Assembly (NCBI GenBank): GCA_026708185.1
Contig: JAPOVK010000017.1
Coordinates: 310,001-374,000 of the forward strand
DNA length: 64,000 nt
Origin: Gammaproteobacteria bacterium
GTDB lineage: Bacteria; Pseudomonadota; Gammaproteobacteria; Pseudomonadales; Azotimanducaceae
Reading direction: 5' to 3'
Each line of letters starts with the position of its first letter. The stretch's first letter is position 1. A model generated the notes under the pieces. The model was not told the origin of the DNA and searched no databases. It saw only the letters and a list, made by a program, of their open reading frames with translations. The position numbers and the translations under genes were made by a program. Below are positions 1 through 4,202 of the stretch, piece after piece.

Positions 1-1
1 C

Positions 2-1330
2 GGCGGTGCGCGTGTCGTGGCACCGGAGGTCACCATCGCGAAGTACAGGCACCTCGTGAGCCCGATCAGCGGTGTCGTGACGTGGCTTTCGCGCACCACC
101 GATGAGACCGATTCCTGGCTCCATGTCTACTGGGCGGGCAGCAATCTCGGCTTGAGAAGCCGCAGCCTGAGCTCGCTCAGGCGCAGTCTGCGCAGCAAGA
201 GTGCCGGGAAGGGCAGCACGCGGGAGCAATCCGAGGTCAGTGCCCTCTGCGAGGCAGTCGAGCGCTACTCGGGAGCGCTGCATGGCGACGAGATTCGTGT
301 GCGGAGGCGACTCGTCGACTTCGCGAGCGACGACGAGGCGATCCATCCCAACGCGGCCCAGCTTTTCAGCGACAGCCAACTCGACAACGCGCCGAGCATC
401 AACGCGAAAGGTCATCCATACAACGTGGTTCCGCCACGCCTCGCACCCGATGCCGAAGTCGACTGGACACCGGTGTGGTCGCTGACGCAGAAGCGGCATC
501 GCTATCTACCGACCTCCATGCTCTACAGCATGGCACCCGAACAGCGTGGACCGTCGGACCTTGTCGCGGACTCCAACGGCTGTGCCGCAGGCAACACGCT
601 CGAAGAGGCCATCCTGCAAGGCTTCTACGAGCTTGTCGAACGCGATGCTTTCGCCATTTGGTGGTACAACCGCCTGCGCGTCCCCCGGGTCGATCTCGGG
701 AGCTTCGACGACGAGTACCTCGCCTCGGCCCCCCGTCACTACGCTGACTACGAGCGCGACCTGTGGATGCTCGACATCACCTCCGACATCGGCGTTCCGA
801 CGTTCGTCGCACTCTCGCGCAGACCGGACGGGGAAACCGAGGACATCATCTACGGGGCCGGCTGCCATGCCGACCCGCGCCTTGCCGCGTTGCGTGCGCT
901 CTGCGAACTGAACCAGTGCCTCACGTGGCTGCCGCGGCCCGGCAAGCGTGACGGCCGGCCCATGATCGACGATCCACTGGCGCTCTGGTGGTGGAAGACC
1001 GCCCGGTTGGCTGACTGTCCCTGGCTGACGCCGGGCGCAGACAAGGCGCCCCGCGCGCGTCCGCAGGACAATGTGACCGAGTCCACGGACACGCGCGATG
1101 ACGTGGAGCTCTGTCGAGGGCTCGTCGAGGAGCGGGGCATGGAGTTCCTGGTGCTCGACCAGACACGACCGGACATCGGCATGCCCGTGGTGCGTGTCAT
1201 CGTGCCCGGCTTGCGACACTTCTGGCCAAGGTTCGCTCCCGGGCGTCTTTACGACGTACCGGTCGGCTTGGGCTACCGCGATCGTCCCCTCGCGGAGTCA
1301 GACTTGAACCCGGCACCCGTCATCGCGTGA
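2..1330 (+). CDS. YcaO-domain azoline-forming cyclodehydratase (5' end outside window)
   Basis: Catalytic YcaO component of a TOMM/RiPP cyclodehydratase. These enzymes use ATP to convert Cys, Ser or Thr of a precursor peptide into thiazolines or oxazolines. The frame is open from base 2 with no stop, so the N-terminus (in many relatives a leader-binding E1-like domain) lies off the window; the first in-frame start is a GTG at 17. Visible YcaO hallmarks are SEVSALCEAVERYSG (about residues 72-86 from that GTG) and NTLEEAI...ELVERDA (about 191-210), the two Glu-rich ATP/Mg-binding stretches. The segment VPGLRHFWPRFAPGRLYDVP precedes a C-terminus ending LNPAPVIA, the Pro-containing tail typical of azoline-forming YcaOs. 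It is followed 9 bp later by a second RiPP-type gene, and a precursor peptide lies 2.6 kb downstream on the other strand. Confidence 0.88.
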   Translation, partial: GGARVVAPEVTIAKYRHLVSPISGVVTWLSRTTDETDSWLHVYWAGSNLGLRSRSLSSLRRSLRSKSAGKGSTREQSEVSALCEAVERYSGALHGDEIRVRRRLVDFASDDEAIHPNAAQLFSDSQLDNAPSINAKGHPYNVVPPRLAPDAEVDWTPVWSLTQKRHRYLPTSMLYSMAPEQRGPSDLVADSNGCAAGNTLEEAILQGFYELVERDAFAIWWYNRLRVPRVDLGSFDDEYLASAPRHYADYERDLWMLDITSDIGVPTFVALSRRPDGETEDIIYGAGCHADPRLAALRALCELNQCLTWLPRPGKRDGRPMIDDPLALWWWKTARLADCPWLTPGADKAPRARPQDNVTESTDTRDDVELCRGLVEERGMEFLVLDQTRPDIGMPVVRVIVPGLRHFWPRFAPGRLYDVPVGLGYRDRPLAESDLNPAPVIA

Positions 1331-1339
1331 GGAGACAGC

Positions 1340-2458
1340 ATGGACATTGACGAGGCGGTCACCCTCACCCAGGACCGTCTTGCTGGCGAGGGCGCGACCA
1401 TGGCGGACCTGCTCGGGCACTTCCGCAACCGCGTATCGCCGATTCTCGTCGGCGATGCGTCATGGGCACGCATCCTCGAATGCGCAGGGCAACTTCCGAT
1501 CACCATGGGCGCCCTTCCTTTCGGCTTCGAACTCCCGCTGCACGACGTCCGGCCGCAGGCGGATTTCGGGGTGTCTCTCGCCAGCCGTACGAGGACGGCT
1601 GCGTTCTTCGCCGGGCGCGCGCGAACGGATCGGACGGATGAGACGGCCAGGGCGATCGGGCGGCTGTTCCAACAGATGGACACCCCAGACTCGCCGCTCG
1701 GCCAGATCGTCGGGCGTAAGCTGATGCTCGAGTACGACATCGGCTCTGCGAACGACGGCGACCGACCGCTTCCGGGACTGTTCCTGCGCCCCGGCGAACG
1801 TCCGGTCATCGGGGCCAGCGGGCAAGTCAAAGATGTCGCCACGGTGGTTGACGCACTCGTGTCCTGCGTTGGCTGGGAGAGCAGGAACGACGAACTCGCG
1901 TGTGCGGAGCGGGTCTACCGGGCACAGCCGGAAGATACGCGCCTCGATTCGTTCGGCGTGTTCCCGTCCCGGCCGCGGGCGGTCCGCCTGGCGGTCATGG
2001 GTTTCAAGACCCAGCAGGACCTCGGCTGCTACCTCGAAAGCACGGGATGGCCCGGCGACATTCCGACTGTGAACTCGGTGATCTCCCGGTTCAGTGAGCG
2101 CGCCGAGATCGTCAGGACGGGGATCAACGTGGACGTGCTCGAAGAGGGTTTGGGCCCGACGCTCGGCCTGACTCTCATCGTCAAGCAGCGCTACACCAAG
2201 GATTCACGGTATTGGCTGGACGGGCTCACCGACTGGGATCCCTTCCTAAAAGCTCTTGGCCAAGAGGAACTCGTGGTACCGGAGAAGCTCGCGGAGCTTG
2301 CCCATTGGGTGTCCAAGCCCATACCGCTCTTCGGCAAGTCCGGCCGCTTCGTCCTGCTGCGTGGCATTCACCACATCAAGCTCGTCGTGACCGGAAACGA
2401 GCTTCAGAAGGCCAAGGCCTACGTGTTCATGGTGCTATCGAGCGGCGTGTCGTTTTAG
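1340..2458 (+). CDS. Uncharacterised protein of the YcaO/RiPP locus
   Basis: A 372-residue soluble protein that I do not recognise by family. It starts 9 bp after the YcaO stop with a good ribosome site (AGGAGA six bases before ATG), so it is almost certainly co-transcribed and probably acts on or with the same peptide. No signal peptide or membrane segment is seen. The N-terminal half contains a run rich in acidic and Arg residues. The C-terminal end (RGIHHIKLVV followed by KAYVFMVL) looks like a conserved closing motif of a folded enzyme domain. It could be a scaffold, a further modifying enzyme such as a transferase, or a partner of the halogenase; nothing in the sequence decides between these. 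It converges on the halogenase gene with 39 bp between stops. Confidence 0.75.
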   Translation: MDIDEAVTLTQDRLAGEGATMADLLGHFRNRVSPILVGDASWARILECAGQLPITMGALPFGFELPLHDVRPQADFGVSLASRTRTAAFFAGRARTDRTDETARAIGRLFQQMDTPDSPLGQIVGRKLMLEYDIGSANDGDRPLPGLFLRPGERPVIGASGQVKDVATVVDALVSCVGWESRNDELACAERVYRAQPEDTRLDSFGVFPSRPRAVRLAVMGFKTQQDLGCYLESTGWPGDIPTVNSVISRFSERAEIVRTGINVDVLEEGLGPTLGLTLIVKQRYTKDSRYWLDGLTDWDPFLKALGQEELVVPEKLAELAHWVSKPIPLFGKSGRFVLLRGIHHIKLVVTGNELQKAKAYVFMVLSSGVSF

Positions 2459-2497: not shown

Positions 2498-3772
2498 CTA
2501 CGACCAGCCAAGGCCCTGGGACACCTGCGCGTAACTGGTGAGCGGAACCGCGCACATGCGATCCCAATCCTCCCTGTCGATAACGGGCTGGCGCAGCAGC
2601 GCGAGCATGCCATCGAACTTGTCGAGGGCGGTGCAGTCAACCGCCTCCGGCGCCGCCGCCGCACGATGGCGGGGCCAAACGCCGTCCCGGGCAAGCCGCC
2701 AGAACGCGCTGTCGTACCGGGAGCCACGGGAGTAGTGCCACCCGACGAACAGTCCGTAGCAGAGCATGTTGCCGACGAGAAAGCGATTGACGGTCGGGGC
2801 ATCGCGCTCGAGATGCTCCACGGGCCGGTTGAGACGAATGTGGAGCACCATGCCGATCTGCAACTGGGCCGACACGATCGCGGTTGCCTCGAGGGGCTCC
2901 ATGAAGGCGGCCGCGTTCCCGATGCGTGCCACCACACCGTCGAATAGCTGACGCCGGACGAAGTTGGGGAATTGAAGGACAGCGCGTTGCGCAAACTCCC
3001 TCACCCCGTCGGATTCGAGGAACGCGTCGAAGTCGGCCTCGACTTCAGCCAGGTCCGTTACGTCGCGATTGAAGATGTAGCCGTAGGATGTGTGTACGGT
3101 AAGCGGAATGACGAATACCCAGCCGTGCGGACGCGCCACCGCCCGGGTATAGGTGTGCTGCAAGACGGGCCCGTTGCGTTCCTCGAGGATTGGGGGCGCA
3201 CGGCGGATAACGGCCGTGTTGGTCGGGATGAAGGAGATCTCGACGTGCTCGTCGGGATCGAGTGCCCGCGGGAAGCCTCGGGCATCGAAGACCAGGTCGT
3301 AGCGTTCCGGCGGCCGGCCGTCGAACGTGACCTCCGCGCCGTCCTTCACCCGGGTTATGCCCGCCACGTTGGCATCGATGTGGCGGGCACGGGTGCTTTC
3401 GTGCAGCAACTCGGCCATGAGATCGGCGGACAGGTGGTAGGCGTAGGACACCTGTTGTGGTGTGAAGTAGTGGGTGAAGTTCCGGTCGCGGCACCCCCAC
3501 CCTTCGAACGCGACGCCGTACTTGCGGGTTCCTTTCAAGCGTTGCTGGATTGTTTCGTGGGGGAGATTCGTCAGTCGCTGGAGTTCTTGGACCAGGCTAG
3601 GCCAACTGCCCTCCCCGACCCCGATGACCGGAATGCGCGAGTCGTAGATGTGGTGCAGTTCGTAGTCGCCGCCGGGGTGAAGACGGGTGACGCTGGCTGC
3701 CGCGAGGCAACCCGCCGTTCCTCGCCCGACCACCGCGATCTTGCGTAGCGACTTGGCGCCGGGCTGTATCAC
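2498..3772 (-). CDS. Flavin-dependent tryptophan-halogenase family protein
   Basis: Predicted FADH2-dependent halogenase, 424 residues. These enzymes make HOCl/HOBr at the flavin and deliver it to an aromatic ring through a conserved Lys. The N-terminal dinucleotide motif is VVGRGTAGCLAA (14-25), followed by the family block GVGEGSWPSL (51-60). K84 in RKYGVAFEGW has the spacing of the catalytic Lys of PrnA/RebH. PLEATA (293-298) holds E295, equivalent to the second catalytic residue. The usual WxWxIP signature is degenerate, reading WVFVIP (218-223), so activity needs proof. The start is a GTG without a clear Shine-Dalgarno. It lies downstream of the precursor peptide gene on the same strand, and that peptide ends in Trp, so peptidyl Trp is the obvious candidate substrate. 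A non-halogenating flavoprotein role remains possible. Confidence 0.82.
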   Translation of the reverse strand: MIQPGAKSLRKIAVVGRGTAGCLAAASVTRLHPGGDYELHHIYDSRIPVIGVGEGSWPSLVQELQRLTNLPHETIQQRLKGTRKYGVAFEGWGCRDRNFTHYFTPQQVSYAYHLSADLMAELLHESTRARHIDANVAGITRVKDGAEVTFDGRPPERYDLVFDARGFPRALDPDEHVEISFIPTNTAVIRRAPPILEERNGPVLQHTYTRAVARPHGWVFVIPLTVHTSYGYIFNRDVTDLAEVEADFDAFLESDGVREFAQRAVLQFPNFVRRQLFDGVVARIGNAAAFMEPLEATAIVSAQLQIGMVLHIRLNRPVEHLERDAPTVNRFLVGNMLCYGLFVGWHYSRGSRYDSAFWRLARDGVWPRHRAAAAPEAVDCTALDKFDGMLALLRQPVIDREDWDRMCAVPLTSYAQVSQGLGWS

Positions 3773-3950: not shown

Positions 3951-4202
3951 CTACCAGCAGCAGCAAAGACCGGCCGAGACCGCTTCGAGTTGCTCCTCGG
4001 TGATGTTCGGGTCCGGCGGCAATGCGATATGCACCGTCTGCATGTCGCTCTCGTGGACCTTGATGGTCATCGACTCCGGTATCGTGATGCCCAGTTCCGC
4101 GCTGATCGTGGCACTCGGATCGGCAAGAAGCTGTTGCCGGAAACCGCTGTCCAAGGCCGACTTCTCAACGATGTGCTGCAGCATTTCGTCGCCACTTCTC
4201 AT
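3951..4202 (-). CDS. NHLP-type RiPP precursor peptide with core LCCCW
   Basis: Precursor of a post-translationally modified peptide, 83 residues. The start at 4202 is set by a strong ribosome site, AAGGAGGA, seven bases upstream; longer reading frames into upstream DNA lack this. The leader resembles the nitrile-hydratase-like leader peptide family (NHLP, proteusin/TOMM type): FRQQLLADP (21-29), AELGITIPE (35-43), then an acidic segment TEEQLEAVSAG (68-78). The last part is a double-Gly-type cleavage site. What remains is a five-residue core, L79-C80-C81-C82-W83, then the stop. The Cys residues suit the nearby YcaO enzyme, and the C-terminal Trp suits the halogenase 180 bp downstream on the same strand. 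Leader assignment is by pattern; the chemistry is inference. Confidence 0.85.
   Translation of the reverse strand: MRSGDEMLQHIVEKSALDSGFRQQLLADPSATISAELGITIPESMTIKVHESDMQTVHIALPPDPNITEEQLEAVSAGLCCCW

Follow-up and report, generated by a model that had tools for sequence, protein, structure and literature searches.

An srpE-type proteusin precursor with the core LCCCW and neighbouring genes for a predicted prenyltransferase-fold protein and a predicted class II terpene cyclase

The window analysed here is a stretch of 64,000 nucleotides from a Gammaproteobacteria bacterium (contig JAPOVK010000017.1, positions 310,001 to 374,000). It opens inside a gene cluster whose upstream part was read from the same contig, a window coordinate being the contig coordinate minus 310000. 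Genes for an HlyD-like protein, two ABC transporters, an NHLP fusion protein, an AlkB-like protein, a YcaO protein and a protein of 372 residues (X372) follow one another in this order, with a flavoprotein gene and the precursor gene on the other strand. The features are as follows.

Contig 299234: weakly HlyD-like protein (20.8 bits against a cut-off of 156).
Contig 299917: NHLM ABC1, a C39-peptidase ABC transporter (822 bits, slightly below the NCBIfam cut-off of 853).
Contig 302271: NHLM ABC2, a second ABC transporter (689 bits, slightly below the NCBIfam cut-off of 709).
Contig 305238-306539: NHLP-fusion protein of 433 aa, a predicted class II terpene cyclase.
Contig 306623-309004 (L024:8123-10504), upstream of the window: AlkB/fatty-acid-desaturase-like protein with an odd GlnE-like match.
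Window 1..1330, plus strand: srpC orthologue, C-terminal part of a leader-binding/YcaO protein (PF02624, E 1.9e-96).
Window 1340..2458 (contig 311340-312458), plus strand: X372, 372 aa, with a predicted ABBA/PT-barrel aromatic prenyltransferase fold.
Window 2498..3772, minus strand: srpI orthologue, a flavin-dependent peptidyl Trp brominase of 424 aa (PF04820, E 2.3e-42).
Window 3951..4202, minus strand: srpE orthologue, an NHLP/proteusin precursor of 83 aa starting with ATG at 4202.

Profile matches place the YcaO protein and the halogenase-like flavoprotein where the initial annotation of the precursor had put them. The YcaO reading frame extends upstream beyond the window, running from contig ~308940 to 311330, for a fused protein of up to 796 aa that carries a TIGR03882 leader-binding domain when taken at full length (E 1.5e-39). 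Three His boxes are found in 50/52 long matches of the AlkB-like protein, a count in which loci of one genome may appear twice, and this protein is a candidate oxygenase acting on the product.

The C-terminal end of the precursor is EEQLEAVSAGLCCCW (EEQLEAVSAG-LCCCW), with residues 1-78 forming the leader and residues 79-83 the core. The NCBIfam model leader_NHLP (TIGR03793) matches residues 6-78 (E 2.5e-18; 65.7 bits against a cut-off of 50.9) and the Pfam model NHase_alpha (PF02979) scores 31.0 bits, above its gathering score of 27.2. The leader includes an LxxxxL-type motif, NITEEQL at 66-72, and the residues SAG directly before the core form a small-residue cleavage site of the double-Gly type. 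A nitrile-hydratase-like leader followed by such a site places the peptide among the NHLP/proteusin precursors. The description from which the analysis started, an NHLP leader covering all but the last five residues, was thus borne out; the leader search, which might have exposed an unrelated small protein, returned a genuine NHLP leader.

The precursor is, with high confidence, SrpE of the srp proteusin cluster known from marine sponge microbiomes. This assignment follows from the match of the core, the numbering of the leader motif and the brominase residues to published SrpE and SrpI. Two srp papers give LCCCW exactly as the SrpE core; they describe the conversion of its three Cys to thiazolines by the YcaO protein SrpC, and the leader-dependent bromination of its C-terminal Trp at indole C6 by SrpI, with no chlorination observed (PMC10286304, PMC10858898). 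In SrpI, Lys84 is reported to be the catalytic residue, and Tyr102 and Tyr110 to undergo self-bromination (PMC10286304); the leader motif is numbered NLTEEQL, 66-72 (PMC10858898). The flavoprotein encoded in the window has GRGTAG, K84, Y102 and Y110, the last three at the published SrpI numbers. The joint presence in one cluster of an NHLP precursor, a leader-binding YcaO, NHLM ABC1 with its C39 peptidase and NHLM ABC2 was also counted towards srp identity, and srp is listed among the sponge clusters conserved across species (PMC9426513). Consequences for the starting description are twofold. Its leader, core, three consecutive YcaO-made thiazolines and halogenated C-terminal Trp agree with what is published for the orthologues, the halogen being specifically bromine; its statement that no exact match was known falls, LCCCW being the published SrpE core. 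Precursor, core, azoline formation and bromination are already published, and the finding as first given is a rediscovery. The earlier picture is probably also incomplete, as it left two terpenoid-type proteins and an AlkB-like oxygenase unaccounted for.

Relatives of the precursor were examined in a set of 58 genomes, its own genome counted in. Some match was found in 15/58; matches of 84-100% identity were found in 11/58, each of them with LCCCW at its end. When 84,980 species genomes were scanned by pattern, 136 relatives emerged; the counts use the best 80 of these, which come from 79 genomes overlapping partly with the set of 58. The LCCCW end is present in all 80 of these best 80 of 136, which comprise 69 distinct peptides encoded by 80 distinct DNA sequences. 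By a Nei-Gojobori-type estimate, dN/dS falls from 0.061 over the whole peptide to 0.025 over residues 66-78 and to 0.0097 over the core. The motif NLTEEQL itself occurs exactly in 4/80 of the best 80 of 136. The relatives come from metagenome-assembled genomes labelled Gamma- and Alphaproteobacteria, Acidobacteria, Gemmatimonadetes, Binatia, Deltaproteobacteria, Rhodothermales and others. Judging by isolate names and literature, with one record title naming Spongia, most of them appear to be sponge symbionts. One genome carries, besides an LCCCW copy, a second, partial and divergent copy ending in LCSCW (L188:3747-3920, plus strand).

Neighbouring genes were counted at the 45 loci, among the best 80 of 136, with full flanks (about 10 kb on each side). 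Within these flanks lay X372 at 40 loci, the cyclase at 42, the YcaO gene at 40 and the AlkB-like gene at 33. The AlkB-like gene stands between cyclase and YcaO in 33 of the 47 loci, among the best 80 of 136, that hold both; a further locus (L108) has a shorter AlkB-like match at this position. An SrpI match longer than 90 residues was found within the flanks of 33/45 full-flank loci, reaching at least 380 residues in 32/45. When the remaining 12 genomes were searched whole, a full-length SrpI was found elsewhere in 10 of them, one with an internal TAG, bringing the genomes with SrpI to 43/45 (33 near srpE and 10 elsewhere). Whole-genome searches for two further loci revealed SrpI in one and none in the other, whose completeness was not given. 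The flavoprotein gene lies on the strand of the precursor in the window, but the two genes have opposite orientations at 44 of the 47 loci of the best 80 of 136 that have a match above 90 residues. A halogenase search of 369 genomes drawn from the class found the source genome alone, a result that says little on distribution because the sample lists four genomes from its order and, besides itself, none from its family.

Two chromosome-level genomes bear on whether bromination is a constant part of the pathway. The first (L065/G428), searched whole, has no SrpI; a search of four stretches found at this locus a 14-residue C-terminal SrpI trace (E 0.005). In the second (L120/G438), decayed SrpI pieces remain; those at L125 align with residues 1-26 and 211-422. 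Both genomes have an intact LCCCW. Bromination is thus not universal, since both genomes keep the core without an intact SrpI, and it appears to have been lost occasionally with the Trp retained.

The two terpenoid-type proteins were examined by predicted fold. X372 is predicted to form five alpha-alpha-beta-beta repeats that close into a PT barrel, the ABBA fold. Residues R211, R216, K316, R341, K347 and Y361 are invariant in 71/71 distinct proteins and are candidates for the diphosphate-binding Arg/Lys/Tyr set of such enzymes. The window protein has no sequence match in Pfam, NCBIfam or PDB. Among 27 relatives, weak matches were seen to DUF7639 (9/27, best E 0.058), to RecX_HTH1 (1/27) and to five NCBIfam models (best E 0.057); they were taken as chance, and membership of X372 in a known sequence family was set aside. 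The NHLP-fusion protein joins an NHLP leader-type domain to a predicted alpha-alpha barrel of the class II cyclase type. Its acid motif, DLDS, is found in 56/56 distinct proteins and aligns with DLDTT of drimenol synthase; it is a variant of DxDD/DxDTT in which Ser replaces the first Thr.

Both genes co-occur with the LCCCW precursor. X372 and the cyclase are both present in 45/45 full-flank genomes, the 5 that lack X372 and the 3 that lack the cyclase nearby having them elsewhere. In the set of 58 genomes, X372 reaches 67% identity or more in all 11 LCCCW srpE relatives and in 0/47 others; one of the 47, G001, has a 41% relative beside a precursor with another core, MCCCL. The cyclase occurs in 10/11 LCCCW relatives and in 1/47 others (G011), and is missing in G014, where the srpE contig is cut short. 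Fisher p values for co-occurrence with LCCCW, in which kinship of the genomes is ignored, are 4e-12 for X372 and 2e-9 for the cyclase. On an X372 tree of 68 rows, with a bootstrap that had not settled and bins that may hold foreign contigs, phylum labels cluster, with 6 changes where shuffling gives 15.7 on average, and well-supported branches force at least 2 changes for Acidobacteriota. Because the labels cluster and yet these changes are forced, the sequences suggest that X372 was inherited mostly vertically, with transfer possible.

Sister NHLP precursors with other cores were also seen. Precursors ending in LCCCL (L033:9054-9302, minus strand) and MCCCL (L035:9907-10155, minus strand) are about 51% identical to SrpE. 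Searched against the genomes of 79 of the 80 loci, the LCCCL precursor found no match above 62% identity outside its own genome. A FAD_binding_4 oxidase gene adjoins both precursors, its copy at L035 reading in two pieces, and the flanking DNA contains no SrpI and no cyclase. Relatives of X372 lie beside the CCCL and MCCCL precursors (38-41% identity, with 38-40% at L033 and L035) and in the VCQC group of L036 (34-36%). The cyclase was not found in the flanking DNA of the CCCL, MCCCL and VCQC loci, and the only cyclase copies of those genomes sit in LCCCW clusters; G001, the MCCCL genome lacking LCCCW, gave no cyclase match when searched whole. This pattern hints, though weakly, that the cyclase accompanies the Trp core. 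The initial annotation had matched this Trp to the neighbouring halogenase. The Leu-ending sisters, with no SrpI nearby, agree with that pairing; the persistence of LCCCW in genomes without an intact SrpI does not.

Further sister cores (WCCCGN, WCCCGQ, MCCCGI, RCCCCA, GSAGCM, VCQC, GECIC and LCACM) were seen at L192, L193, L194, L120, L189, L191 and L036, and several of them have an X372-type gene close by. The same genus has a further NHLP precursor family, whose ends resemble DTDWQNHPIFHD and which lies beside NHLM-type transporters at L037, L038, L039 and L040; the flanking DNA of these four loci contains no YcaO or X372 match.

A pathway can be proposed from these genes. The long NHLP leader would recruit the tailoring enzymes. 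By analogy with the published orthologues, the SrpC orthologue would convert the three core Cys to consecutive thiazolines, and the SrpI orthologue would brominate C6 of the Trp with the leader still attached. X372 would transfer an isoprenoid to the tris-thiazoline peptide, most simply to its C-terminal Trp, and the NHLP-fused class II enzyme would cyclise the chain, either before transfer, as the free diphosphate, or once it is attached to the peptide. The C39-peptidase ABC exporter, to go by its gene family, would cleave after SAG and export the product. Judging by the predicted folds, a single motif and the co-occurrence, bromo-tris-thiazoline LCCCW may carry a terpenoid in its mature form. 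We regard it as somewhat probable that the srp peptide is such a hybrid of a RiPP and a terpenoid, in which an ABBA prenyltransferase and a class II cyclase yield a brominated, drimane-like or similar ribosomal meroterpenoid. If so, the retention of LCCCW in lineages without the brominase would be explained. A hybrid with a C15 chain and 79Br would show an [M+H]+ of 855.275 before any oxidation by the AlkB-like enzyme.

The same genes could be read differently: X372 may be catalytically inactive, serving as a scaffold or as a partner that binds the leader, and the cyclase may use free farnesyl diphosphate for an unrelated product, leaving the peptide as bromo-tris-thiazoline LCCCW only. A shared fold is not a shared function, and this reading would also accommodate the X372 relatives beside the CCCL and MCCCL precursors, which lack a Trp and whose loci are without a cyclase, the lack of a cyclase match in the whole of G001, and the published bromination in vitro of azoline peptides without prenylation. 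It accounts less readily for the presence of X372 and the cyclase in every full-flank srpE genome, for the restriction of close X372 homologues to the 11 LCCCW relatives, and for a cyclase that combines an NHLP leader-type domain with an invariant DLDS acid motif. We consider it a serious but rather doubtful alternative to the terpenoid hybrid.

The bromination step has a competitor of its own. Canonical flavin-dependent halogenases have the motif WxWxIP; 44/44 long relatives of the flavoprotein have W(V/I)FVIP instead, that is WxFxIP, and because of this difference the protein was filed as an SrpI orthologue within PF04820 and not as a canonical halogenase. QhpG hydroxylates Trp in quinohemoprotein maturation, and the NCBIfam QhpG model matches the flavoprotein, at E 1.5e-4 and 20.8 bits against a cut-off of 240. 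Together with the deviating motif, this match could suggest Trp hydroxylation and a redox-active Cys/Trp product. Such an activity is nevertheless very improbable in view of the far stronger PF04820 profile match, with its GxGxxG and catalytic Lys, and of the closest PDB sequence matches, which are Trp halogenases; moreover, KxGxxFxxW surrounds the catalytic Lys in 42/44 long relatives, and the published orthologue brominates. That the precursor is an unrelated small protein with a CCCW end arising by chance is practically ruled out by the leader profile match and by the same core in the best 80 of 136 relatives, over 80 distinct DNA sequences.

The value of the finding lies in the surrounding genes, and the terpenoid layer is the part worth testing. 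For the LCCCW core, the srp literature consulted describes thiazolines and bromination only (PMC10286304, PMC10858898). No prenyltransferase or terpene cyclase is described for srp in the literature searched, a scope to which the discovery paper (JACS 2021, PMC8780398) does not belong; the string 'prenyl' is absent from the main text of PMC10858898 and occurs once in PMC10286304, within a reference. Should both terpenoid-type proteins modify the peptide, the natural compound would escape a search for the simpler mass. With its core prenylated and cyclised it would be an unusual RiPP, and the identity of the srp natural product would become directly testable.

The cluster agrees with the srp cluster (Nguyen et al. 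2021; Nguyen & Agarwal 2023; Nguyen et al. 2024) in the LCCCW core, the NHLP leader with an LxxxxL-type motif at 67-72, the YcaO and the leader-dependent Trp brominase with K84, Y102 and Y110; it differs at leader residue 67, which is Ile here and Leu in the published substrate. The predicted fold of the C-terminal domain of the cyclase, and its acid motif aligned to DxDTT, recall the drimenol synthases and MstE, which are class II terpene or meroterpenoid cyclases, but the protein has no HAD domain, is fused to an NHLP domain and has the motif DLDS(T/S). Two systems provide precedents for terpenoid chemistry on a ribosomal peptide. The mpp cluster of Moorena producens encodes the brominase MppI, the prenyltransferase MppC, which geranylates a core Trp in a leader-dependent manner, and the terpene synthase MppD (PMC11791876, PMC12715784). 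As is predicted for the cluster analysed here, it combines a long-leader RiPP and a Trp brominase with a prenyltransferase of the alpha-beta-beta-alpha type, a terpene synthase and an oxygenase, but it is a lanthipeptide system with a Nif11-like leader and the core ACWRWSG, and no YcaO is named in the text consulted. In Paenibacillus alvei, PalQ prenylates the C-terminal Trp of the NHLP precursor PalX and accepts farnesyl (PMC10853753). PalX thus resembles SrpE in being an NHLP precursor with a C-terminal Trp, in its case a prenylated one; PalQ, however, belongs to the isoprene synthase superfamily and not to the ABBA type, and its three-gene cluster has no brominase or YcaO. Because mpp and PalX/PalQ exist, a terpenoid step in the srp pathway is plausible.
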